Shown one piece after another: positions 2,381-25,843 of a DNA stretch of 27,471 bases (position 1 is the stretch's first letter; each line of letters opens with the position of its first letter). The position numbers and the translations under genes are program-made. Under the pieces are notes generated by a model. It was not told where the DNA came from. It ran no database searches and was given only the letters and a program-made list of their open reading frames with translations. Source of the DNA: a virus; IMG/VR virus record IMGVR_UViG_3300025785_000071, positions 1 to 27,471 of that record. One strand, written 5' to 3'.

Positions 2381-3826
2381 ATGGGAATCCTAGACATTTT
2401 CAGCAGGAAAAATAAGGTTGTCAAAGAGAACAATACGCTTTTTGGACAAACCCAATTAGGTAACCAAATTGTCCGTCAAGCTCAAGACGGCAAAGGTGGA
2501 GCTAATTTCCAACTCCTTTATGTAACCACAAGCTCAACGACCAACGCTGGTCGTATTGTGGATATGTCGGTGCTTACCCGAAACAGCACCATTATGTCTT
2601 GCGTAGGCGTTATTGCTAGAGCCCTTTCTCAATGTTCAATTTATATTGCATACAGAGAAGATATTGGCACTTTTGTAGATGCCCTTCAATCAGATAAAGC
2701 TGGTAGCCGTGATAAAGCCAAAGCAAAGCAAGTATTAACTCTCCTGCAAGAGCCTAACAACTTCCAGTCCCAGTATGAGTTTTGGTATCAATGGGTAATG
2801 TGGTATCTCCTATCGGGTGAAGTATTTACCTTGTTATATCGTAAAGACCAAAAAGACCCAAATCAAACCCCAATAGAGTTATATAACCTAGATTCGACTT
2901 TAATTACAACTCAGTTAAATCCTGCCCGTTATCCTACTTATCGCCTATCTACACCTTCTTATGGCTTTAATCGTGATGAGCCACTAGATGCGCACCAAGT
3001 AATTCATATTTCAGAAGCCGCTTGGCAGGGCTCCGCAGGTTTCAATAAAGGTATTTTGGCAACAGAATTAGTGGCTTTAGATCAGGATATTGACCTATAT
3101 GCTAACTATGTAATGCAAAACGGAGCAAAACCTAGCGGTATGTTTGTTACCGATCAAGTTATTCCTGACGCCAAATACAAAGAAATTGCCGCACGGCTGA
3201 AAGAGGCTTGGTCTTCCATGACAGGTTCAAAGCCCACAGATTTGAGTAAGCCTGGGCAATCCATTATGTTAGATAACGGCATGAAATATGAGCCGTTGAA
3301 AATGCTAACTCTCCAAGATGCCGATTGCGCCCGCTTGAAAGAGCAAACTACCAAGCGTATATGTGCCTTATTTGGCGTGCCACCGCAAATGCTTGGCTTG
3401 GATGTAGGTAAATTTAATAATACTCAGACTTTATTGGATGAGTTTTATAAAACCACCATGTATCCAATGATTATTGCTATTGAGCAAAAGTTTAAAATGG
3501 GATTATTAAAAGGCTATCCAAACCTTTGTATTCGTTTTGATACTAAAGACTTCCTAAAAGGAGCCGCTTTAGATCAAATGAATTTTGTAAACGCTGGTGT
3601 GGCTGGTGGAATTATGACCCCAAATGAAGCCCGTGAATATATGAATATGCCTAAAATGGATGGAGCTGATGAGCTTTTATCTGTAAATGCTCAAGCTATT
3701 TCCTCTGATAATGTGCCAGTAGGACAAAAAACTGCTAAAGTTCAAGCATTACCCGGAAGTTCCCCACAGGATACGGGTGGCGGAGGCGGTAATCAGAAAA
3801 GTAAAATGAACATTGGGAAGAAATAA
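2381..3826 (+). CDS. Portal protein, HK97 family
   Basis: This is the dodecameric portal ring at the unique capsid vertex through which DNA enters and leaves. The protein has 481 residues. Features typical of the family are a conserved early helix (MSCVGVIARALS, about 70-81), LLQEPN at about 121-126 followed by an aromatic-rich YEFWYQWVMWYLL stretch, and FGVPPQMLG at about 330-338. The tail of the protein is low-complexity with a glycine run, as is common in portals. A GAGGA Shine-Dalgarno precedes the ATG. The stop overlaps the next ATG (TAATG, 3824-3828). Its place between terminase and protease is the standard HK97 order. Confidence 0.95.
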   Translation: MGILDIFSRKNKVVKENNTLFGQTQLGNQIVRQAQDGKGGANFQLLYVTTSSTTNAGRIVDMSVLTRNSTIMSCVGVIARALSQCSIYIAYREDIGTFVDALQSDKAGSRDKAKAKQVLTLLQEPNNFQSQYEFWYQWVMWYLLSGEVFTLLYRKDQKDPNQTPIELYNLDSTLITTQLNPARYPTYRLSTPSYGFNRDEPLDAHQVIHISEAAWQGSAGFNKGILATELVALDQDIDLYANYVMQNGAKPSGMFVTDQVIPDAKYKEIAARLKEAWSSMTGSKPTDLSKPGQSIMLDNGMKYEPLKMLTLQDADCARLKEQTTKRICALFGVPPQMLGLDVGKFNNTQTLLDEFYKTTMYPMIIAIEQKFKMGLLKGYPNLCIRFDTKDFLKGAALDQMNFVNAGVAGGIMTPNEAREYMNMPKMDGADELLSVNAQAISSDNVPVGQKTAKVQALPGSSPQDTGGGGGNQKSKMNIGKK

Positions 3827-4044
3827 TGGACACAATTAACAAAATAATTGGCGTTTTAGGTTATCAGTTAGTAAAAAATAATGTTAAACTGCCAACAAAG
3901 ACAAAATCCCGTAATACAATAACTGACAATAATCAATCTATCAGAAATGGGATTATCAATGAATCAGAACCTGAATTTCCTGTGCGAAGCAAAGCTAAGC
4001 CTAAACCAATCCTCAAAAAACGGAGCACCAAGCGGGAAAATTGA
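3826..4044 (+). CDS. Small basic overlapping ORF (72 aa), function unknown
   Basis: The ORF starts inside the portal stop codon (TAATG), an arrangement used for translational reinitiation. It overlaps the first 98 bases of the protease gene in a different frame. The second half is rich in lysine and arginine (KAKPKPILKKRSTKRE), and I recognise no domain. The protease ATG at 3947 has no good Shine-Dalgarno, so translation through this ORF may deliver ribosomes to it. It could be a genuine small head protein or only a translational leader. The basic composition partly mirrors the protease frame, which tempers confidence. Confidence 0.45.
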   Translation: MDTINKIIGVLGYQLVKNNVKLPTKTKSRNTITDNNQSIRNGIINESEPEFPVRSKAKPKPILKKRSTKREN

Positions 4045-4753
4045 AGCCCGTGTTACCTCTTGGGGTGCTAGAGAAGGCGCAGACGGGAGAAAATTCAATT
4101 ATCAGCCCGAAGGATTTATGGAATGGGCAAATTCCTTTACCGAAGCTGGTAAACCTTTGCCAATGTTCCTAAACCATAACGATATGGGTATGCCTATTGG
4201 TCAATGGAATGAATTTACTTTTGACAAAACAGGTTTAGTTGCTAGTGGTGAATTATTTATGAATACCACCGCAGGCTCAGATATTTACGAAGTTTTAAAA
4301 TCATCACCTAACTTGTTTGGTGGTGTATCAGTAGGCGCATACGCAGAAGAAGCCCGTTTTGTTAATGAAGCTGGCGATGAAGTGGATGATGACGATACAG
4401 ATGAAGCCTATTTCCAAATTACTAAAGGTGGCTTGCGTGAAGTATCTGTTGTAATGTTCCCAAACAATCCAGCCGCCGAAATTCAGAAATTAGAGTGTTT
4501 TGATGCCGAAGGGCATTTGAATCCTCGCATAGTTGAGGAAGCCTTGCGTGAGGCAGGTCTTTCCAAGAAGGGTGCGACCACCGCATCTTCCGTCTTTAAA
4601 AAGATTCTTGAATTGCGTGATGCAAACAAGGAAATTGTTAAAGAAACCCCACAACCAAGTGAATTGGAAGCGGTGGTAAATGAAGCTGATACTATTCTCA
4701 AAGCGTTAGAGCATAGAGAATTGGTAAAAGCATTAACTAAACGCATCAAATAA
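3947..4753 (+). CDS. HK97-type prohead maturation protease (peptidase U35/S78-like)
   Basis: This protease digests the scaffold domain of the capsid protein inside the prohead. The protein has 268 residues. The catalytic pattern is visible: His77 in MFLNHND, Ser128 in FGGVSVGAY, and an acidic residue in GLREVSVVMFPNNPA (Glu165), which is the usual LxEVSxVxxPA block. Residues up to about 180 are the protease. The remaining roughly 90 residues form a helix-rich charged tail, which may be a targeting or scaffold segment. The start is uncertain: ATG 3947 or 3959, neither with a clear ribosome site. The gene overlaps a 72-residue ORF and lies directly before the capsid gene, its presumed substrate. 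Confidence 0.92.
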   Translation: MGLSMNQNLNFLCEAKLSLNQSSKNGAPSGKIEARVTSWGAREGADGRKFNYQPEGFMEWANSFTEAGKPLPMFLNHNDMGMPIGQWNEFTFDKTGLVASGELFMNTTAGSDIYEVLKSSPNLFGGVSVGAYAEEARFVNEAGDEVDDDDTDEAYFQITKGGLREVSVVMFPNNPAAEIQKLECFDAEGHLNPRIVEEALREAGLSKKGATTASSVFKKILELRDANKEIVKETPQPSELEAVVNEADTILKALEHRELVKALTKRIK

Positions 4754-4762
4754 GGAAAAATC

Positions 4763-6118
4763 ATGATTGAACAGATCAACGAAAAACTTGATGCAATCGA
4801 AACACAAACGGTTGCTAAAGTAGAAGAAGTTAAGGCTGAGGCAGTTGCCGCAGTTGAAGCCGCTAAGACAGAAATGACTGAAAAGTTTGTTGCCTTAGAA
4901 GCAAAAGTATCCGCTATTCAAGCTCCTGAAATTGCTCGCAGTCCTGCTAAAACAATCAAGCAAGATGTAAACCGCAAGGTTAAAGAGCAGTTGGCAAAGA
5001 TGGTTAAAAAAGGTTCAATGAACAAAGAATTTGAAATGTTTGCTGATGAATCTGAATATTCTGCCTATTTGAAGGAAGATGGTTCACAAATTGGTAATCC
5101 TGCTGGTTACGGCGGTGGTTACAATGTGGGTGGTCGTACCGCTTATGATCCTGTATTCCACAAGTTGCGTTTAATGAACCCATTGCGTGGTGTTAGCCGT
5201 AATGTAACCACAGATGGTTCTGTATACCAATTCCGTGCCAAAACAGGTAATGCTGGTGCTCAATGGGGTTATGCAATCCAAAACAACGGTGCACCAACAA
5301 CTGAAAACACCAATATTTGGCAAGTTGTAATGCAAGATTTGAATGTCCAGTTCCCAATTCGTACCGCCGCTTTAGACGATATTGATGGTTTGGAGTCCAA
5401 TGTAGTTGATGATATGTTGCTCGAATTTAGCCAGCAAGAAGGTTTGGCTATGATTCAGAACAACGATCAAGGCTCTACTTCCCTGCCATACGGCGGTTCT
5501 AATGGTATCCGTGGCTTGAACCAATACGGCGGAGCTAATGCTTCCTACACAGGTGGCACAATCTCTACTGCCGCTTTCGGTTCTTCAGGCACAGCATCAA
5601 CAAACGGCTTGCATAGCATTGCTACCTACGACCAAATCACCACCAATGGTGATACCGCAGGTGCAAACAATGTAACCTTTGATGACATCATTAACTTCCT
5701 ACATTTCTTGCCACAGGAATACTGGACACCAACAGCAAAAATCGTTGTGTCTCCTTTCTTCTTGGCACAGATTCGTGGCTTGAAGGATACAAACGGCACG
5801 CCAATTTTTGATCGTATGACACCATTGATTACCGAAGGTATCGTAGGTCAAATTGCTGGCTTTGATGTAGTAGTCAATAAGTATCTTGACCAACCATATC
5901 AAACAACTGGCAACACAGCTACCAGCTTGTATCCAATGTATTTTGGTGATTTCCCACGATTCCACACAATCGTTGATCGCTTGAATATGGTTCTCCGTCG
6001 CTATGACCAAACATTACCCGGCTTCATCACCTTTTTCGGTGAAAAGCGTTTGGCAACCAGCGTTGTTGATCCATTCTCAGCAATCCGTTACCGTTCTACT
6101 GCAACAGCAGGCGTTTAA
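4763..6118 (+). CDS. Major capsid protein, HK97 fold, with N-terminal delta domain
   Basis: This is the main shell protein. The protein has 451 residues. Residues 1-55 are an alanine/glutamate/lysine-rich coiled coil typical of the delta (scaffold) domain removed by the prohead protease. A linker reaches to about residue 115, and the HK97-fold core begins at NVGGRTAYDP (121 onward). Conserved core features include PIRTAALDDI, LLEFSQQEGLAMIQNND and a C-terminal TLPGFITFFGEKR. An AAGGA Shine-Dalgarno precedes the ATG, and a double stop (TAATAA) ends it. A paralogue without the delta domain follows at 6171. Cleavage is predicted near residues 95-115, by analogy only. Confidence 0.94.
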   Translation: MIEQINEKLDAIETQTVAKVEEVKAEAVAAVEAAKTEMTEKFVALEAKVSAIQAPEIARSPAKTIKQDVNRKVKEQLAKMVKKGSMNKEFEMFADESEYSAYLKEDGSQIGNPAGYGGGYNVGGRTAYDPVFHKLRLMNPLRGVSRNVTTDGSVYQFRAKTGNAGAQWGYAIQNNGAPTTENTNIWQVVMQDLNVQFPIRTAALDDIDGLESNVVDDMLLEFSQQEGLAMIQNNDQGSTSLPYGGSNGIRGLNQYGGANASYTGGTISTAAFGSSGTASTNGLHSIATYDQITTNGDTAGANNVTFDDIINFLHFLPQEYWTPTAKIVVSPFFLAQIRGLKDTNGTPIFDRMTPLITEGIVGQIAGFDVVVNKYLDQPYQTTGNTATSLYPMYFGDFPRFHTIVDRLNMVLRRYDQTLPGFITFFGEKRLATSVVDPFSAIRYRSTATAGV

Positions 6119-6122
6119 TAAG

Positions 6123-6149
6123 GCAGGGGGGAGCAATCCCCCCGCTTTT
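6123..6149 (+). terminator. Strong hairpin between the two capsid genes, terminator-like
   Basis: A GGGGGGA (6126-6132) and TCCCCCC (6137-6143) stem closes on a GCAA tetraloop, which belongs to the stable GNRA class. It is extended by an outer GC/GC pair with a bulged A, then followed by TTTT (6146-6149). This is an intrinsic terminator layout, though the U-tract is short. Because head genes continue downstream without a clear new promoter, it more likely acts as a partial terminator or an RNA-stability element. That would make the first capsid message more abundant than the second. Confidence 0.7.
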
Positions 6150-6170
6150 ACTATTTAATTTGGAATAAAA

Positions 6171-7211
6171 ATGGCTAATCTAATTCTTGAAGCAGTCCAA
6201 ACCGCCCTTAAAGAGGGACAGGCAACAGTAAACTTAAAAGAGGCATCACAACTTACTGGATCGGGTTCAGGAGTTGGTGGTCGCACAATTTATGACGATG
6301 CTTTTGCAAGTTTGCGTCAAAACAACCCAATTCGTAATGCTGGTGCAAGAGTTATCACCACCATTGGCTCAGATGAAGCCTTTGTAGTTAAAACAGGTGA
6401 TGTCACCAACATTCAAAACGGCTCTTATAACCCATGGGGATATCCAATTAACAGTAATAATTCTGTTAATGGTATTGCTACTTCCTATTGGCAGTTACCA
6501 GTCCGTGCAATTAATGCGGTAGTTCCAATTCGTACCGCTGTTATGGATGATATTAATAACATCAACGAAGCTATTGTTGGCGACATTATGTTGGAATTTG
6601 CACAACAAGAAGCCCTTTCCATGATGTTTAACAACGACCAAGCTGGTTCTACCACAGTTCAAACTGGTGCTACCTTAGGCTTGCGTGGTTTAAATTCTTA
6701 TACAGGCTCGACTTCTGCCGCCGCTTTTGGTTCCAATGGTCCTGCGATGACCAATGGCTTGCATACTGTGCTAGAAGTTACCCAAACAAGTCCTTCCGCC
6801 ATTTCTTATAACGATATTGGCAACCTAGCTTCTGCTTTACCTCCACAATACTGGACTGATCCTAGCACCGCTTGGATGATGCACCCTTCCACAATCAAAC
6901 AAATCCGTGAATTGACTGGATCAGGTTCAGGCTTGCCAGTATTCCTAGAGGTTGGTGATATGGATGGCGGTGCGGTAACTCGCATTTTTGGATTCCCAGT
7001 TATTGCCAACCCTTACATGGATGTGGCTGGATCAGGAAAGCACCCAGTTTACCTTTGCGCATGGGATCGTTTTGTTACCATCGCTGACAATGAATTAATG
7101 AATATTTCCGTGTTTGAACAAACATTACCCGGATTTATGACATTATTCTGTGAAAAACGGGTTGTCTCCACCATTCGGGATGTGTTTGCAGGCGTTAGAT
7201 TGGTAGGCTAA
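6171..7211 (+). CDS. Second HK97-fold capsid protein (paralogue lacking delta domain)
   Basis: The protein has 346 residues and is clearly homologous to the capsid protein at 4763. Both share VGGRT.YD near the core start, PIRTA..DDI, the LEF.QQE.L.M..NNDQ block, GLRGLN, TNGLH, and a C-terminal QTLPGF.T.F.EKR. By hand, 25 of 52 residues match in the central block. The core starts about 87 residues earlier than in its neighbour, so the coiled-coil delta domain is missing. It may be a minor shell protein, for example at special positions or as decoration, or a second shell subunit needing the first for assembly. The hairpin upstream suggests lower expression. Structural function is inferred. Confidence 0.88.
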   Translation: MANLILEAVQTALKEGQATVNLKEASQLTGSGSGVGGRTIYDDAFASLRQNNPIRNAGARVITTIGSDEAFVVKTGDVTNIQNGSYNPWGYPINSNNSVNGIATSYWQLPVRAINAVVPIRTAVMDDINNINEAIVGDIMLEFAQQEALSMMFNNDQAGSTTVQTGATLGLRGLNSYTGSTSAAAFGSNGPAMTNGLHTVLEVTQTSPSAISYNDIGNLASALPPQYWTDPSTAWMMHPSTIKQIRELTGSGSGLPVFLEVGDMDGGAVTRIFGFPVIANPYMDVAGSGKHPVYLCAWDRFVTIADNELMNISVFEQTLPGFMTLFCEKRVVSTIRDVFAGVRLVG

Positions 7212-7212
7212 T

Positions 7213-7881
7213 ATGCCATTAGATAGTCTTACAAATGGTCCTTTTTTAGGGACTACTCGTAATCCTTATAGTTATGACAAGATTGAGCAGGTAAGCCGTG
7301 ATATGCAAACGGCTTGGCTATCTCTTGATGAGATAACTCAGCAATTAAACTTGTTTGAGGATCAAAGCCAAGATTCATATCTGCAAGGACTTGAATTGGC
7401 GACCCGTATGGCGATTGAGGACTATCTTGGTATGTCCATATTCCCAACCACATACAAGGTCTATTACGGCACTTTTAACGGCATGACAGGCACACAAATG
7501 AGCCTTGATTTGCCCGAAGTGAGCCAAGATTTTCAAGGTCAAAAAGGTGTGGTAATTAATGAGGTGGCTTATTACTCAGGAGCCACTCCCCCTGTTTATA
7601 CAGTTATTGCACCTGCAAATTATTATTATGATCCTACGGGTAACAAGGTAATCGTATCGGGTATCCCTGATTCCGCCAGTCAGATTATGACCAGCCCTAT
7701 TGTTTGCACATATACCTGTAACGCTAATCCTATTGCTCAATATCCAGTAATTAAACAAGCTGGTCTCCTTTTATTAACCCACTTGTATAACAACCGCTCC
7801 AATTCGTTTAACGGCAAATTGGCTAATATTCCATACGGGGTGGATCAACTTTTACGCCCATACAAACCATTGGTGATGTAA
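7213..7881 (+). CDS. Head-tail connector, gp6-like (adaptor)
   Basis: This is probably the adaptor ring that docks under the portal after packaging. The protein has 222 residues. The N-terminal part contains a helical LSLDEITQQLNL...YLQGLELATRMAIEDYLGMSI pattern typical of gp6/gp8-like connectors (helix followed by A...IE.Y.G). The middle is beta-rich, and the C-terminus is again helical (KQAGLLLLTHLYNNR). It begins two bases after the second capsid stop and is followed immediately by the next connector, the usual HK97 order. Family identification is from pattern and position. Confidence 0.82.
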   Translation: MPLDSLTNGPFLGTTRNPYSYDKIEQVSRDMQTAWLSLDEITQQLNLFEDQSQDSYLQGLELATRMAIEDYLGMSIFPTTYKVYYGTFNGMTGTQMSLDLPEVSQDFQGQKGVVINEVAYYSGATPPVYTVIAPANYYYDPTGNKVIVSGIPDSASQIMTSPIVCTYTCNANPIAQYPVIKQAGLLLLTHLYNNRSNSFNGKLANIPYGVDQLLRPYKPLVM

Positions 7882-20857: not shown

Positions 20858-22222
20858 ATGAGCAATACCATACGAATCAAAAGACGGGCTAATGGCGGTG
20901 GTGCTGGTGCTCCTTCTTCATTGGCGAACGCTGAAATGGCGTTTAATGAACAAACTAATATTCTGTATTACGGAACAGGCACAGGTGGCACAGGCGGTTC
21001 TGCTACCTCTATTATTCCTATTGCTGGTAATGGCGCATTTGTAGATTTAAACTCTGCTCAAACTATTGGTGGAACAAAAACCTTTAGCTCCACTATTAGC
21101 GGTTCTATTACAGGTTTGGCTGGAACGGCTACTGCTTTGGCTACTGGTCGCACCATTTCCATTACAGGAGACCTTGCTTATACATCAGGCTCTTTTGACG
21201 GAACATCCAATGTAACTGGAACAGGCACATTATCCAATACAGGCGTTACCGCAGGCACTTATACCAAGATTACAGTAGATGCTAAAGGTCGTGCCACAGT
21301 CGGTGCGGTAGCTTCCATTAGCGACCTATCTGCGCCTACTGGTGATGTTTCTTTTGGTAATTACAAAATTACCTCTTTATCTGATCCAATTAATGCTCAA
21401 GATGCCGCCACTAAAAATTATGTGGACAGCGTTGCACAAGGTTTGAATGTTAAATCTGCCGTTGTAGCCGCTACAACTAGCTCTATTACATTGGTTGGCG
21501 GTCAAACCATTGACGGAGTAACAGTTGTTGCTGGCGACCGAGTATTGGTCAAAAACCAAGCTTCTCCTTCTGCCAACGGTATTTACAATGTTCAAACGAC
21601 TGTATGGACAAGAACTACCGATGCCAATACATGGACTCAATTGGTTTCCGCATTTGTATTTGTGGAAAAAGGCACAACTCAAGCCGATACTGGTTGGGTA
21701 TGTACCGTTGATCCGGGAGGCACATTAGGAACAACCCCTGTTACTTGGGCTCAGTTTAGCGGAGCAGGAACTTATACCGCAGGCACAGGCTTATCTTTGT
21801 CAGGCGGAGTATTTAGCATTTCCAATACCGCCGTTACCGCTGGTTCTTATGGAAGCGCAAGCCAAACATTAAGCGCAACTGTAAACGCACAAGGTCAGCT
21901 TACAGCGTTATCTGCGCAATCAATTAGTATTGCTCCTAGCCAAATTAATGCGACAATTCCTAACAGCGGATTGACCAATTCGACCATTTCGGGTGTTGCT
22001 TTAGGAAATAGCCTATTTGCTTTGACAATCGGAACTGGTTTAAGTGGAACAAGCTATAACGGATCAAGCGCAGTTACTGTTGCTTTGGCTAATACGGCAG
22101 TTACCTCAGGAACATACGGAACTACCGATGGCACAACTACAATGCAAATTGCAGTTAATGCACAAGGTCAAATTACAAGTGCCGCTCAATATTCAATTAA
22201 TGTGGATGGTGGAACTTTCTAA
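20858..22222 (+). CDS. Tail fibre protein with repeated shaft segments
   Basis: The protein has 454 residues. The N-terminal MSNTIRIKRRANGG...SLANAEMAFNEQTNILYYGTG segment is a common fibre attachment segment in phages. Residues about 170-320 contain YKITSLSDPINAQDAATKNYVDS, then a conserved domain with VVAGDRVLVKNQASPSANGIYNV. The rest is threonine/serine/glycine-rich shaft with pseudo-repeats (LANTAVTSGTYG, LSATVNAQGQLTAL). IGTGLSGTSYNGSSAVT recurs in the next gene. It should form a trimeric beta-helical fibre shaft. It lacks a visible intramolecular chaperone domain. Confidence 0.82.
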   Translation: MSNTIRIKRRANGGGAGAPSSLANAEMAFNEQTNILYYGTGTGGTGGSATSIIPIAGNGAFVDLNSAQTIGGTKTFSSTISGSITGLAGTATALATGRTISITGDLAYTSGSFDGTSNVTGTGTLSNTGVTAGTYTKITVDAKGRATVGAVASISDLSAPTGDVSFGNYKITSLSDPINAQDAATKNYVDSVAQGLNVKSAVVAATTSSITLVGGQTIDGVTVVAGDRVLVKNQASPSANGIYNVQTTVWTRTTDANTWTQLVSAFVFVEKGTTQADTGWVCTVDPGGTLGTTPVTWAQFSGAGTYTAGTGLSLSGGVFSISNTAVTAGSYGSASQTLSATVNAQGQLTALSAQSISIAPSQINATIPNSGLTNSTISGVALGNSLFALTIGTGLSGTSYNGSSAVTVALANTAVTSGTYGTTDGTTTMQIAVNAQGQITSAAQYSINVDGGTF

Positions 22223-22262: not shown

Positions 22263-23270
22263 ATGGCTAATGTAATAAAACCAAAGCGGTCAAATACCGC
22301 TAACAATACGCCTACAACTTCCAATCTCACCTCAGGTGAATTGGGAGTTAATATGGCGGATAAAAAAATATTTATTAACAACGGGACTGCTGTTGTTCAA
22401 ATTGGAGCTGGCAATTTATCCGCATTAGGGGATGTCGCTTTAACTTCTCCAGCCTCGGCTAATTTACTAAGTTACAACGGCACCAATTGGGTAAACCTTG
22501 CGCCTAGCTCGGTAACTGGAGTAGGTAGTCTTGCTAATGCTTTAAGTATTGGAACAGGTCTTAGCGGAACTTCCTATAATGGCTCATCAGCTATAACCAT
22601 AGCCCTTGCAAATACAGCAGTAACCGCAGGAAGTTATACAAACGCTAATATTACAGTAGATGCACAAGGGCGTATTACCTCGGCGGCAAATGGAACATCA
22701 AGCGGTGGTGTTACAGCAGTTAATGGAACAACAGGGCAAATTAGCTCTACTGGCGGAACAACTCCTACATTAGCTTTGGTTACAACAGCAGTATCGGCTG
22801 GATCATATACAAATACCAATATTACAGTTGATGCTTATGGCAGAATTACCTCGGCTTCCAATGGATCAGCAGGAGGCGTTAGCAGTTTTAATACTAGAAC
22901 TGGAGCAGTAACCTTATCCTCCAGCGATGTTACAACCGCTTTGGGCTACACTCCGCCAACTCCTACGGGATCAGGAGCAAGTGGAACTTGGTCAATAAAT
23001 GTGACTGGTTCTGCTGGTTCTGCCACCACAGCAACTACGGCTACAACAGCAAATGCCTTAAATACAAGCAACGCCTATACAGGAGCAGGATTTACCTCTT
23101 CTGCTGGATTTACGGCAACCTCTAATAATCCATTTATATATAATGCAACTACTGTATCAGCTAATGTGACAATTCCATCTAACTATAATGCGGTGGCGGC
23201 TGGTAAGATTACAATTAATACAGGTATTGTGGTAACTGTTTCAACTGGTAGTCGTTTAGTAATCGTTTAA
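22263..23270 (+). CDS. Second repeat-containing tail fibre protein
   Basis: The protein has 335 residues and is related to the fibre before it. It starts MANVIKPKRSNTANNTPTTSNLTSGELGVNMADKKIFI, a typical fibre N-terminal segment. The shaft contains IGTGLSGTSYNGSSAIT, shared with the upstream fibre, and two internal near-copies of TNANITVDAQGRITSA (about 22618-22693 and 22789-22864). LSSSDVTTALGYTP is another common fibre motif. The C-terminus TINTGIVVTVSTGSRLVIV copies that of the fibre gene at 17544. It is probably the distal fibre with its receptor end at the C-terminus. Confidence 0.8.
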   Translation: MANVIKPKRSNTANNTPTTSNLTSGELGVNMADKKIFINNGTAVVQIGAGNLSALGDVALTSPASANLLSYNGTNWVNLAPSSVTGVGSLANALSIGTGLSGTSYNGSSAITIALANTAVTAGSYTNANITVDAQGRITSAANGTSSGGVTAVNGTTGQISSTGGTTPTLALVTTAVSAGSYTNTNITVDAYGRITSASNGSAGGVSSFNTRTGAVTLSSSDVTTALGYTPPTPTGSGASGTWSINVTGSAGSATTATTATTANALNTSNAYTGAGFTSSAGFTATSNNPFIYNATTVSANVTIPSNYNAVAAGKITINTGIVVTVSTGSRLVIV

Positions 23271-23673: not shown

Positions 23674-23891
23674 AAGAATTTTTCAAACATTTATTAACGG
23701 GAAAAGATAATGAAACCTATGACATTGGTCGGGTTACTTGGCTTTTCGGTGTTATTACTATTATTTGTTTGGCAGGTTATCAAGTATTTCATACTGCTGT
23801 CAGTCTCCGTGAGCTTGCGGAATCTCTCGGTATAGTATCGGGAGCTGGCGGTGCATCCGTAATGATGAAAAAAGACACGGAGCCACAATAA
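23670..23891 (+). CDS. Holin candidate (73 aa)
   Basis: The protein has 73 residues with one clear transmembrane helix at about 23-45 (VTWLFGVITIICLAGYQVF) and a weaker hydrophobic stretch near 55-66 (IVSGAGGASVMM). The cytosolic N-terminus is basic. The C-terminal ELAESLGIVSGAGGASVMMKKDTEP is characteristic of a group of small phage lysis-region proteins. Length, hydrophobicity and position directly before the spanin and endolysin genes suggest a holin. The preceding small membrane protein is the other candidate. Confidence 0.62.
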   Translation: MKEFFKHLLTGKDNETYDIGRVTWLFGVITIICLAGYQVFHTAVSLRELAESLGIVSGAGGASVMMKKDTEPQ

Positions 23892-24304
23892 TGTTTCCAC
23901 TTCCTATTAGCACCTATATTTATGCTGGTTTGATTCTAATTGCCGTTGCTGGCTTTGGCTATGGTAGTTATGAGCATAAAAACTACATTAATTACAAAAA
24001 TGAAGTTGAAACGCTAGCAAAACAACAGGAAGCTAAAGTAGAATCTGAAAAACAACAGCAAGCTCTTGTAAACAAAGGAATTCAAGATGAATATGATGCG
24101 AAATTGGCTTTATTGCGCCAGTATTATGCTAACGGGGTGCGCAAATCCAGTAGCAGTTCCTTGCCCACCATTTCCTCAGCCAAATCCCTCGTTGATGCAA
24201 CCTCCGCCTACGCAATTCTTGCTGGACAATGCTCAGAAACAACTCTCCAATTAATTGAGCTACAAAAGTGGATTAATGAACAAATAGGCATAAATGTTAA
24301 ATAA
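23891..24304 (+). CDS. Inner-membrane spanin, Rz-like
   Basis: The protein has 137 residues. An N-terminal signal-anchor (residues about 8-27, YIYAGLILIAVAGFGYG) is followed by a periplasmic coiled coil rich in glutamate, lysine and glutamine (about 33-80). The C-terminal domain contains a Cys in AGQCSETTLQLIELQKWIN, a common Rz ending. With the embedded lipoprotein at 24087 it should span the periplasm and fuse the membranes at the last step of lysis. The start overlaps the holin stop (TAATG). The end overlaps the endolysin start by 11 bases. Confidence 0.85.
   Translation: MFPLPISTYIYAGLILIAVAGFGYGSYEHKNYINYKNEVETLAKQQEAKVESEKQQQALVNKGIQDEYDAKLALLRQYYANGVRKSSSSSLPTISSAKSLVDATSAYAILAGQCSETTLQLIELQKWINEQIGINVK
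24087..24254 (+). CDS. Outer-membrane lipoprotein spanin, Rz1-like, embedded in the Rz gene
   Basis: This is a 55-residue ORF wholly inside the i-spanin gene in the +1 frame. The product starts MNMMRNWLYCASIMLTGC: a short basic and hydrophobic signal with lipobox LTGC and acylated Cys at residue 18. The mature part is proline-rich (PVAVPCPPFPQPNPS, MQPPPTQF) and short, ending in a polar DNAQKQLSN. This combination is diagnostic of Rz1 proteins, and embedded Rz/Rz1 arrangements are known from lambda. A lipoprotein spanin means the host has an outer membrane. No strong Shine-Dalgarno is seen, so coupling with Rz translation is likely. Confidence 0.88.
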   Translation: MNMMRNWLYCASIMLTGCANPVAVPCPPFPQPNPSLMQPPPTQFLLDNAQKQLSN

Positions 24305-24830
24305 TTTTCAAACAAGTTTGGGATTGTTGTTAGGAGAAGAAGCAGGTTTTCAAGATGATCCAAGAGATAGTGGCAATCATTTACCCGATGGAAGGGCTGG
24401 TTGCACCAATTTAGGCGTCACTCAAGCCGTTTGGGAGGAATACTTAGGGCATCCTGTCAGCCGTGCCGATATGCAAGCCCTAACGCCCGAAAAGGTATCT
24501 CCTTTTTATAAAATTAAATATTGGAATCCTTCCTATTGTGATGTCCTTCCTAGTGGTCTTGATTATTGTTTATTTGATTTTGCCGTAAACCACGGAGCTG
24601 GTGGCGCAGTTAAAATTTTGCAACAGGCTATTGGTTGCGTTCCTGATGGAGTTATAGGACCACGCACACTACAAATGATTCAACAGCAAGACCCTGCCGA
24701 AGTAATTAAAAAATTTACAATGGCGAAAGAAACTTTTTATGAAGGCTTGAAGGCTTATCCTATATACGGGCATGGCTGGATAGCAAGATCAGAAAAAGTC
24801 CGCCAAGACTCCTTAAATATGGTGAAATAA
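24294..24830 (+). CDS. Endolysin, GH108-type muramidase with C-terminal peptidoglycan-binding domain
   Basis: The protein has 178 residues and should cleave the glycan strands of the host wall. The start of the catalytic domain, LLGEEAGFQDDPRDSGN...GCTNLGVT, matches GH108 (E-G-G-Y/F..dp.D.GG.T..GIt), with Glu16 as the predicted catalytic residue. The usual EGG is EAG here. The C-terminal half (FDFAVNHGAGGAVKILQQAIG, DGVIGPRTL) is a PG-binding 3-type segment. There is no signal peptide, so release depends on the holin. The ATG overlaps the spanin stop region, and the stop overlaps the next ATG (TAATG). Confidence 0.88.
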   Translation: MLNNFQTSLGLLLGEEAGFQDDPRDSGNHLPDGRAGCTNLGVTQAVWEEYLGHPVSRADMQALTPEKVSPFYKIKYWNPSYCDVLPSGLDYCLFDFAVNHGAGGAVKILQQAIGCVPDGVIGPRTLQMIQQQDPAEVIKKFTMAKETFYEGLKAYPIYGHGWIARSEKVRQDSLNMVK

Positions 24831-25843
24831 TGACTTTAGCCGCCTGTCCCGAAGATGAATTTATTAGGATTTGGCAGGAATTACAATCGCCTACTTTAGT
24901 AGCAAAAGCATTAGCCATTGATCCTCGTTCTGTTATGCGCCGTAGGCGGTATATTGAGCATAAAAATGGAATAGTTTTAGAAGCAAAAGGTCATACACAA
25001 AAAGCTCCAATAGATTTAAAACAACTTAAACAAAATGTAGAAGCCAAACTCCTTCAAACCCGTCATCATGCAAGACGGGGAACGGAGATGGAAAAAGGCA
25101 GGGTTGTTGTATTCTCGGATGCCCATTTTTACCCCGATGAAACCACGACTGCCTATAAAGCCCTATTGGAAACCATTAAAGAGTTTAAGCCTTCCGTAAT
25201 CGTATGCAACGGCGATGCTTTTGATGGAACTACCGCCAGCAGACATCCGAGGATTTCGTGGGCTTCTGCCCCAACTATTAAAGAGGAACTGGAAGCCTGC
25301 CAATACTACCTAGAAGGCATTGAAAAGGCTAATAGAGGCGGTGAATTAATATGGACATTAGGTAACCACGATGCCCGTTTTGAAACCTTCCTATCCAACC
25401 AAATTGGACAATATGAAGGAGTGCAAGGTTTTACCCTTAAAGACCATTTTCCTTTGTGGAAACCTTGCTGGTCATATTGGATCAATACCGATACTGTAAT
25501 AAAACACCGATGGAAAGGTGGCTACACCGCAGGACACAACAATACGGTGCAAGGCGGGGTTAATATTGTTACAGGTCATACCCATGTATTAGCCGTTCAG
25601 CCATTTACCGATTATTCGCCAGCTTTTTCTGAAAATGGTGGAACTCGTTATGGTGTTCAAACAGGCACATTAGCCGATCCAAATGGTGACCAATTCCTTG
25701 ATTACACCGAGGACAACCCTAAAAATTGGCGTTCAGGTTTTGCCCTTTTGACATTTGATCGTGGTAGATTACTTATGCCTGAACTTGTACAAGTCTGCGG
25801 ACAAGATGAGGTGGAATTTAGAGGAAAAATTCATTCCGTTTAA
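24830..25843 (+). CDS. Calcineurin-like metallophosphoesterase with N-terminal HTH
   Basis: The protein has 337 residues. An N-terminal helix-turn-helix-like segment (about 15-42, LVAKALAIDPRSVMRRRRYIE) precedes the phosphoesterase core. All metal-binding motifs are present: FSDAHF (Asp97, His99), CNGDAFD (Asp129), LGNHD (Asn179, His180) and TGHTH (His250, His252). Substrate is unknown; phage members may act on nucleic acids or phosphoproteins. It is coupled to the endolysin gene by TAATG, so it is a late gene. The downstream protease starts 19 bases after its stop. Confidence 0.85.
   Translation: MTLAACPEDEFIRIWQELQSPTLVAKALAIDPRSVMRRRRYIEHKNGIVLEAKGHTQKAPIDLKQLKQNVEAKLLQTRHHARRGTEMEKGRVVVFSDAHFYPDETTTAYKALLETIKEFKPSVIVCNGDAFDGTTASRHPRISWASAPTIKEELEACQYYLEGIEKANRGGELIWTLGNHDARFETFLSNQIGQYEGVQGFTLKDHFPLWKPCWSYWINTDTVIKHRWKGGYTAGHNNTVQGGVNIVTGHTHVLAVQPFTDYSPAFSENGGTRYGVQTGTLADPNGDQFLDYTEDNPKNWRSGFALLTFDRGRLLMPELVQVCGQDEVEFRGKIHSV

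Follow-up and report, generated by a model that had tools for sequence, protein, structure and literature searches.

The stretch of DNA analysed here (the window, a 27,471-base virus record from a freshwater virus of bacteria) encodes two HK97-type capsid paralogues, A and B, of which A carries a scaffold-like N-terminal domain and B does not. We consider it fairly probable that the shell of this virus is built of A hexamers together with a scarcer, scaffold-less B, which would most likely be placed at the vertices and would use the scaffold of A. The HK97-type capsid is the textbook case of a shell in which one protein, with its own fused scaffold, forms both the hexamers and the pentamers.

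The locus and its head genes

No second copy of this virus record was found. The head genes of the window are arranged in the order small terminase, TerL, portal, S78 prohead protease, A, B, head-tail adaptor and tail genes. The features referred to below are as follows.

642 to 2351, + strand: terminase large subunit, TerL (phrog_9, E 9e-135; Pfam TerL_nuclease and TerL_ATPase)
2381 to 3826, + strand: portal protein (Pfam Phage_portal, E 1.7e-61)
3947 to 4753, + strand: prohead serine protease, S78 type (Pfam Peptidase_S78, E 1.1e-11)
4763 to 6118, + strand: capsid protein A (ORF A), 451 aa, HK97-type major capsid protein (PF05065, E 1.3e-27; TIGR01554; alignment to B)
4763 to 5026, + strand: N-terminal helical delta-like domain of A, residues 1 to about 88, boundary approximate (joint A/B family alignment; low-confidence predicted helices)
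6119 to 6170, + strand: intergenic gap between A and B, 52 nt
6126 to 6150, + strand: terminator-like hairpin GGGGGGAGCAATCCCCCC, then GCTTTTA (115 of 119 distinct junctions)
6171 to 7211, + strand: capsid protein B (ORF B), 346 aa, HK97-fold paralogue without a scaffold domain, proposed vertex subunit (PF05065, E 7.8e-19; alignment to A; model and Foldseek; selection)
7213 to 7881, + strand: head-tail adaptor, Ad1 / Phage_connect_1-like (phrog_442 and phrog_40; PF05135, E 2.7e-4)

ORF A and ORF B are consecutive, both intact and both on the + strand, and B is separated from Ad1 by 2 nt in the window (family median 8 nt). The protease scores 41.2 bits against the NCBIfam HK97 proheadase profile, under the cut-off of 59. 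Further downstream, the products of 20858-22222 and 22263-23270 are tail-end proteins akin to tail fibre / head decoration families (phrog_2647, phrog_11518), the second with a weak Mtd_N match (E 0.019). A gene for a calcineurin-like metallophosphoesterase (24830-25843; PF00149, E 1.8e-9) adjoins the endolysin gene (24294-24830; phrog_315), and an Rz-like spanin (23891-24304) is also encoded nearby.

A and B are HK97-type paralogues, and only A has a scaffold-like domain

A sequence-only reading of this DNA had described tandem HK97 capsid paralogues, and this description is borne out by pairwise and profile comparisons. A and B are 38% identical across 358 columns (E 7e-69). Both exceed the cut-offs of PF05065 (Phage_capsid; 97.4 bits for A and 68.6 for B, curated cut-off 24.2) and TIGR01554 (major_cap_HK97; 105.9 and 70.9 bits, cut-off 27.5), and both match the PHROG 'major head protein' phrog_10. 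Every motif quoted in that reading, VGGRT, PIRTA..DDI, LEF.QQE and QTLPGF, is common to A and B. The predicted fold of B is likewise HK97-like: the model, made from a 47-sequence alignment (pLDDT 71.5, pTM 0.73), has as its best Foldseek match the RcGTA capsid 6tb9 (E 8e-18, probability 1.00, TM by target 0.70). The model of A is poor (pLDDT 55.8) and its best Foldseek matches are the same capsids (E 3.5e-12). Sequence profiles of the two families also find the RcGTA capsid first (A, E 3.8e-9; B, E 4e-6). Because the model of A is too weak to superpose on that of B, the domain comparison given below is made from the sequence alignment.

A has about 90 extra N-terminal residues that are without counterpart in B. 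Aligned together, 65 A and 65 B sequences converge on a common E-AS-ALTGSG..GGR segment. Ahead of TGSG..GGR, B has just 25 to 30 or so residues, which are conserved and align to the stretch of A immediately before the segment. The match of B to TIGR01554 covers profile positions 90-370 of 385. The joint alignment and the range of this match thus uphold the earlier observation that only A has an N-terminal domain of about 90 residues and that B begins near the core. The short N-terminus and the start of the match at position 90 also suggest that B starts close to the predicted start of matured A. The extra domain of A is predicted to be mostly helical, with helices at residues 2-51 and 65-83 (low confidence, pLDDT about 50), and it is rich in A, E and K, like fused delta (scaffold) domains. 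Since the S78 protease gene adjoins that of A, this delta-like domain is probably cleaved by the S78 protease.

Spread, age and selection of the pair

Scans of IMG/VR and of genome contigs yielded several hundred relatives. Related phages had been named beforehand as the place to look for the same gene pair and for decay of its second copy; the pair is found there and no decay of B was seen. A is followed by B in 284 of the 295 loci having A or B, although some of these loci come from the same contig, so that 284 overstates the number of independent genomes; the distinct B starts number 219. The remaining 11 loci end within or beside A or B at a contig end, and this explains every one of the 11 candidates for A without B or B without A. 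Head-gene order is kept in all 277 loci that show at least five head genes. One viral contig with the capsid pair, L241, is 75,987 bases long, twice the usual size of 36-39 kb; it may be chimeric, or it may come from a larger phage that has these head genes.

In a maximum-likelihood tree the A sequences form one clade (support 90/75) and the B sequences another (99/95), and A and B together are separated with support of 100/100 from six single-capsid outgroups (KS9, Bcep176, RHph_X2_25, PARCL1pr, Javan124 and MW462191), the exact root being unsure because the outgroup branches are long. The simplest reading of this tree is that A and B descend from one duplication that is older than the diversification of the family.

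Both genes are under purifying selection. In the 56 locus pairs where dS stays below 1 for A as well as for B, dN/dS has a median of 0.126 in A and 0.147 in B. B evolves somewhat faster than A (median pN 0.304 against 0.232) and is clearly constrained. We found nothing in favour of B being a functionless duplicate, whether redundant or decaying. These values, the retention of B in all loci that cover its position and the age of its clade, which equals that of the family, all speak against this. To the extent that sequence data can refute such a reading it is refuted, and we give it practically no weight.

A distances and B distances do not co-vary in any special way. The partial correlation between them, allowing for TerL and portal, is 0.23, and that between A and the protease is 0.44 (20 loci only). 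We therefore dropped co-evolution of A and B distances as a proof of contact. Some loci combine a close A with a distant B. Locus L145 has A, TerL and portal near-identical to those of L144, L146 and L131, but its B lies at a distance of 0.47 from the others, where the A distances are 0.05-0.09. Residues 1-29 of this B are unchanged from L144 and L146. The distant core behind an unchanged start suggests that the core of B was exchanged by recombination in the TGSG linker, and such loci point to exchange of B by recombination more generally. Together with the lack of co-variation, this exchange speaks slightly against a very tight interface between A and B.

The region between A and B has also received other sequences. 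In L081 (5689-7014), and also in L082, B has about 100 extra N-terminal residues that match phrog_2859, a family of unknown function (E 3e-26); the extra domain is encoded between the terminator-like hairpin and the usual start of B and is a domain fusion. A long B frame is found in L080 too (ORF 84-1484). In L148 a gene of 202 aa (5920-6528) is inserted between A and B, after the hairpin; its product has no Pfam match and looks like a GIY-YIG homing endonuclease. In L165 an HNH endonuclease-like gene (7363-7689; Pfam HNH, E 3.7e-5) lies between A and B before any hairpin.

A terminator-like hairpin and codon bias suggest different dosage

The intergenic gap of the window contains a G+C-rich hairpin with a T run (6126-6143 plus tail), that is, the sequence pattern of an intrinsic terminator, and by G+C pairs this is the best terminator-like site in the first 14 kb of the window. 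A hairpin is present at 115 of 119 distinct A-B junctions with 91 different stem sequences, so the position is kept and the stem varies. After dinucleotide shuffling of the junctions it appears in 0 to 5 of the 119. Three of the four junctions that were missed (L183, L145 and L193) still show a hairpin by eye, and the fourth is that of L165 with its inserted gene. Hairpins are almost absent from the 70 nt after the other head genes: TerL 0/95, portal 0/105, protease 0/105, B 3/125, Ad1 1/143 and the next gene 0/126. The single-capsid relatives Bcep176 and PARCL1pr have a terminator-like hairpin after the capsid gene as well, which suggests that the hairpin is an ordinary trait of a capsid gene and weakens the idea that it is an invention specific to the two-capsid family. 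B would lie on the low side of this putative capsid terminator, equally with the adaptor and tail genes that follow it.

Codon usage in 108 non-redundant loci gives a similar order. The median effective number of codons is 39.5 for A, 43.3 for B, 48.6 for portal, 48.4 for protease and 47.9 for Ad1; A is below B in 93 of the 108 loci and B is below portal in 101. This order fits a copy number of B between that of the major shell protein and those of the low-copy head proteins. We treat codon bias as supporting evidence only, and base composition could contribute to it. In the sequence-only reading, B was proposed to be a minor or vertex-specific subunit, or to co-assemble with the help of the scaffold of A. 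This proposal is partly supported. Two outcomes named there as refuting it, a predicted fold of B unlike HK97 and decay of the second copy in related phages, were looked for and neither was seen. That B would be made in lower amount than A has indirect support from the conserved terminator-like hairpin and the intermediate codon bias.

These data bear on two further explanations. B may have the HK97 fold yet do a different job in the head (for example at the portal vertex, in the neck or in the shell interior), outside the regular lattice, in keeping with its position abutting Ad1 and, like the adaptor and neck genes, beyond the terminator-like hairpin. Its codon bias is, however, stronger than those of portal, protease and Ad1, and residues of the N-arm, E-loop base and P-domain that are conserved in A are kept in B, as for a lattice subunit; we regard such a job as improbable. 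Alternatively, the roles could be reversed, with hexamers made from B, and A at the vertices or serving mainly as scaffold. Both proteins have full HK97 cores, and hexamer identity is not readable from sequence alone. It is A, however, that has the scaffold domain, precedes the terminator-like hairpin, shows the strongest codon bias and is the more conserved by pN, and the single-capsid relatives have the architecture of A, with proteins of 401-429 aa encoded directly after the protease. A reversal of roles is therefore very unlikely.

Divergence is greatest in the A-domain

We compared the two families by capsid domain, placing the domain limits by visual inspection of the B model and the alignment. 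Among positions conserved in both families, A and B have the same residue at 88% in the N-arm and spine, 75% in the E-loop, 72% in the C-terminal strands of the P-domain and 64% in the A-domain. The A-domain lines the axis of the capsomer. Of its 129 positions in A, 26 are deleted in B, and 9 of these are well conserved in A. The A-domain is also more variable inside each family (fraction conserved 0.44 in A and 0.29 in B), so the contrast between A and B there is partly generic. The concentration of divergence in the A-domain is thus suggestive only as to the role of each protein in the capsomer.

The domain pattern also has to be read against a mosaic shell, in which B would be a minor subunit mixed with A in hexamers, for example tuning size or stability, and without a fixed position. 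A and B have the same fold and are conserved as a pair, the residues they have in common in the N-arm, spine and C-terminal strands of the P-domain would permit mixing, and exchange of B by recombination suggests loose coupling. Against this, one B is strictly kept per genome, forms its own clade and has its own deletions in the A-domain, which suggest a defined and different environment, not chance replacement of A. We consider a mosaic shell unlikely, if less so than a role for B outside the lattice.

A model of the two-protein shell

In the arrangement that we favour, A would be the major capsid protein and build the hexamer lattice, and its delta-like N-terminal domain would be a built-in scaffold that is removed by the neighbouring S78 protease. 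B would have arisen by the one old duplication of A, its delta domain having been lost or never present. Its output would be smaller because its gene lies beyond the terminator-like hairpin. B would join the same shell as A, guided by the scaffold of A, and would most likely form pentamers at the 11 non-portal vertices, with A specialised for hexamers, so that the pair would work in the manner of gp23 and gp24 of phage T4. We infer both that B is present in the virion and that it is placed at the vertices. T4 gp24-type vertex proteins are present in 55 copies, as pentamers at 11 vertices.

A family that always keeps a scaffold-less paralogue would, if the vertex reading is true, mean that the jobs of hexamer and pentamer formation are separable in the HK97 system, and it would let the formation of pentamers without a delta domain be tested. 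With A and B sequences matched locus by locus over a few hundred loci, one could look for the residues that fix hexamer or pentamer identity. New here are the hairpin found between A and B at nearly all junctions and almost absent from other head-gene junctions, the order of codon bias (strongest in A, intermediate in B, least in other head genes), and the greatest A/B divergence in the A-domain.

Comparison with known systems

The phage collection holds a single isolate with the pair, Methylophilaceae phage P19250A (KX815270). It has the same pair and gene order in a genome of 38.7 kb, and its A and B are 60.6% and 53.1% identical to those of the window. In its record A is named 'gene transfer agent capsid protein' and B 'hypothetical protein', and we found no mention of the capsid pair in the papers covered by our search that name the phage. 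As a cultured phage with proteins that are 53-61% identical, P19250A is suitable as a test system. The marine OM43 phage Venkman (MT375522) has been called syntenic with P19250A (PMC8163748). We ruled out kinship with the capsid pair: in the Venkman record a single capsid gene lies beside a separate scaffolding gene, and there are tail tube A/B genes as in short-tailed phages, which suggests that its head module is unrelated to that of P19250A.

HK97 and the Burkholderia phages KS9 and Bcep176 have the order TerL, portal, protease, capsid and Ad1, a capsid protein of the PF05065/TIGR01554 family and a fused N-terminal domain as in A. They differ in having a single capsid gene directly before the adaptor region, whereas here B lies in between. 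The nearest solved structure by sequence profile and fold is the capsid of RcGTA (PDB 6tb9, 6tsu), but its solved particles are listed with a single major capsid protein, Rcc01687. Caulobacter phage Colossus is a siphophage that, like the phages described here, has a capsid gene with a diverged second copy (PMC3556154). It is, however, a large phiCbK-like phage in which the copy lies about 21 kb upstream and is found in one of six relatives, so there is no conserved adjacent pair (PMC3556154). In our literature search, which covered few subscription papers, we met with no HK97-type siphophage family described as having an adjacent capsid pair in all its members. The same literature yielded no virion proteomics or cryo-EM study of any member of the present family.

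Dedicated vertex paralogues are already known from T4-type phages. In T4, gp24 is a paralogue of gp23, sits at 11 vertices and is shortened by just 10 residues when it matures, and gp24-bypass mutations in gp23 include A-domain sites between subunits of one capsomer (PMC9958956). The division between hexamer and vertex proteins can thus arise through duplication of a capsid gene (PMC9958956). T4 has two HK97-fold paralogues, the minor one with a much shorter N-terminal propeptide, and a protease gene in the head cluster (PMC9958956); here too we find two such paralogues, the putative minor one with a much shorter N-terminal segment, and a protease gene beside them. T4 differs in other respects: it is a large myovirus with a prolate head, its scaffold core is separate, its two paralogues share about 20% identity and gp24 undergoes cleavage. 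In the window the scaffold-like domain is part of A itself, A and B are 38% identical, the protease is of S78 type and the vertex position of B is a proposed one. B has no match to T4-type families at E <=0.001, its only credible Pfam match being PF05065 and its only PHROGs phrog_10 and phrog_15928, so by sequence it is not a member of the T4 gp24 family. The arrangement of A and B is thus probably a convergent variant of that of gp23 and gp24. On a wider view, we speculate, with the balance about even, that a widespread freshwater lineage of siphophages of about 38 kb has independently evolved a two-protein HK97 shell. In such a shell only the hexamer protein would have a fused scaffold and be a substrate of the protease, a scaffold-less paralogue at the vertices would borrow that scaffold, and dosage would be set by a conserved terminator, which would make it a convergent counterpart of gp23 and gp24 in T4.
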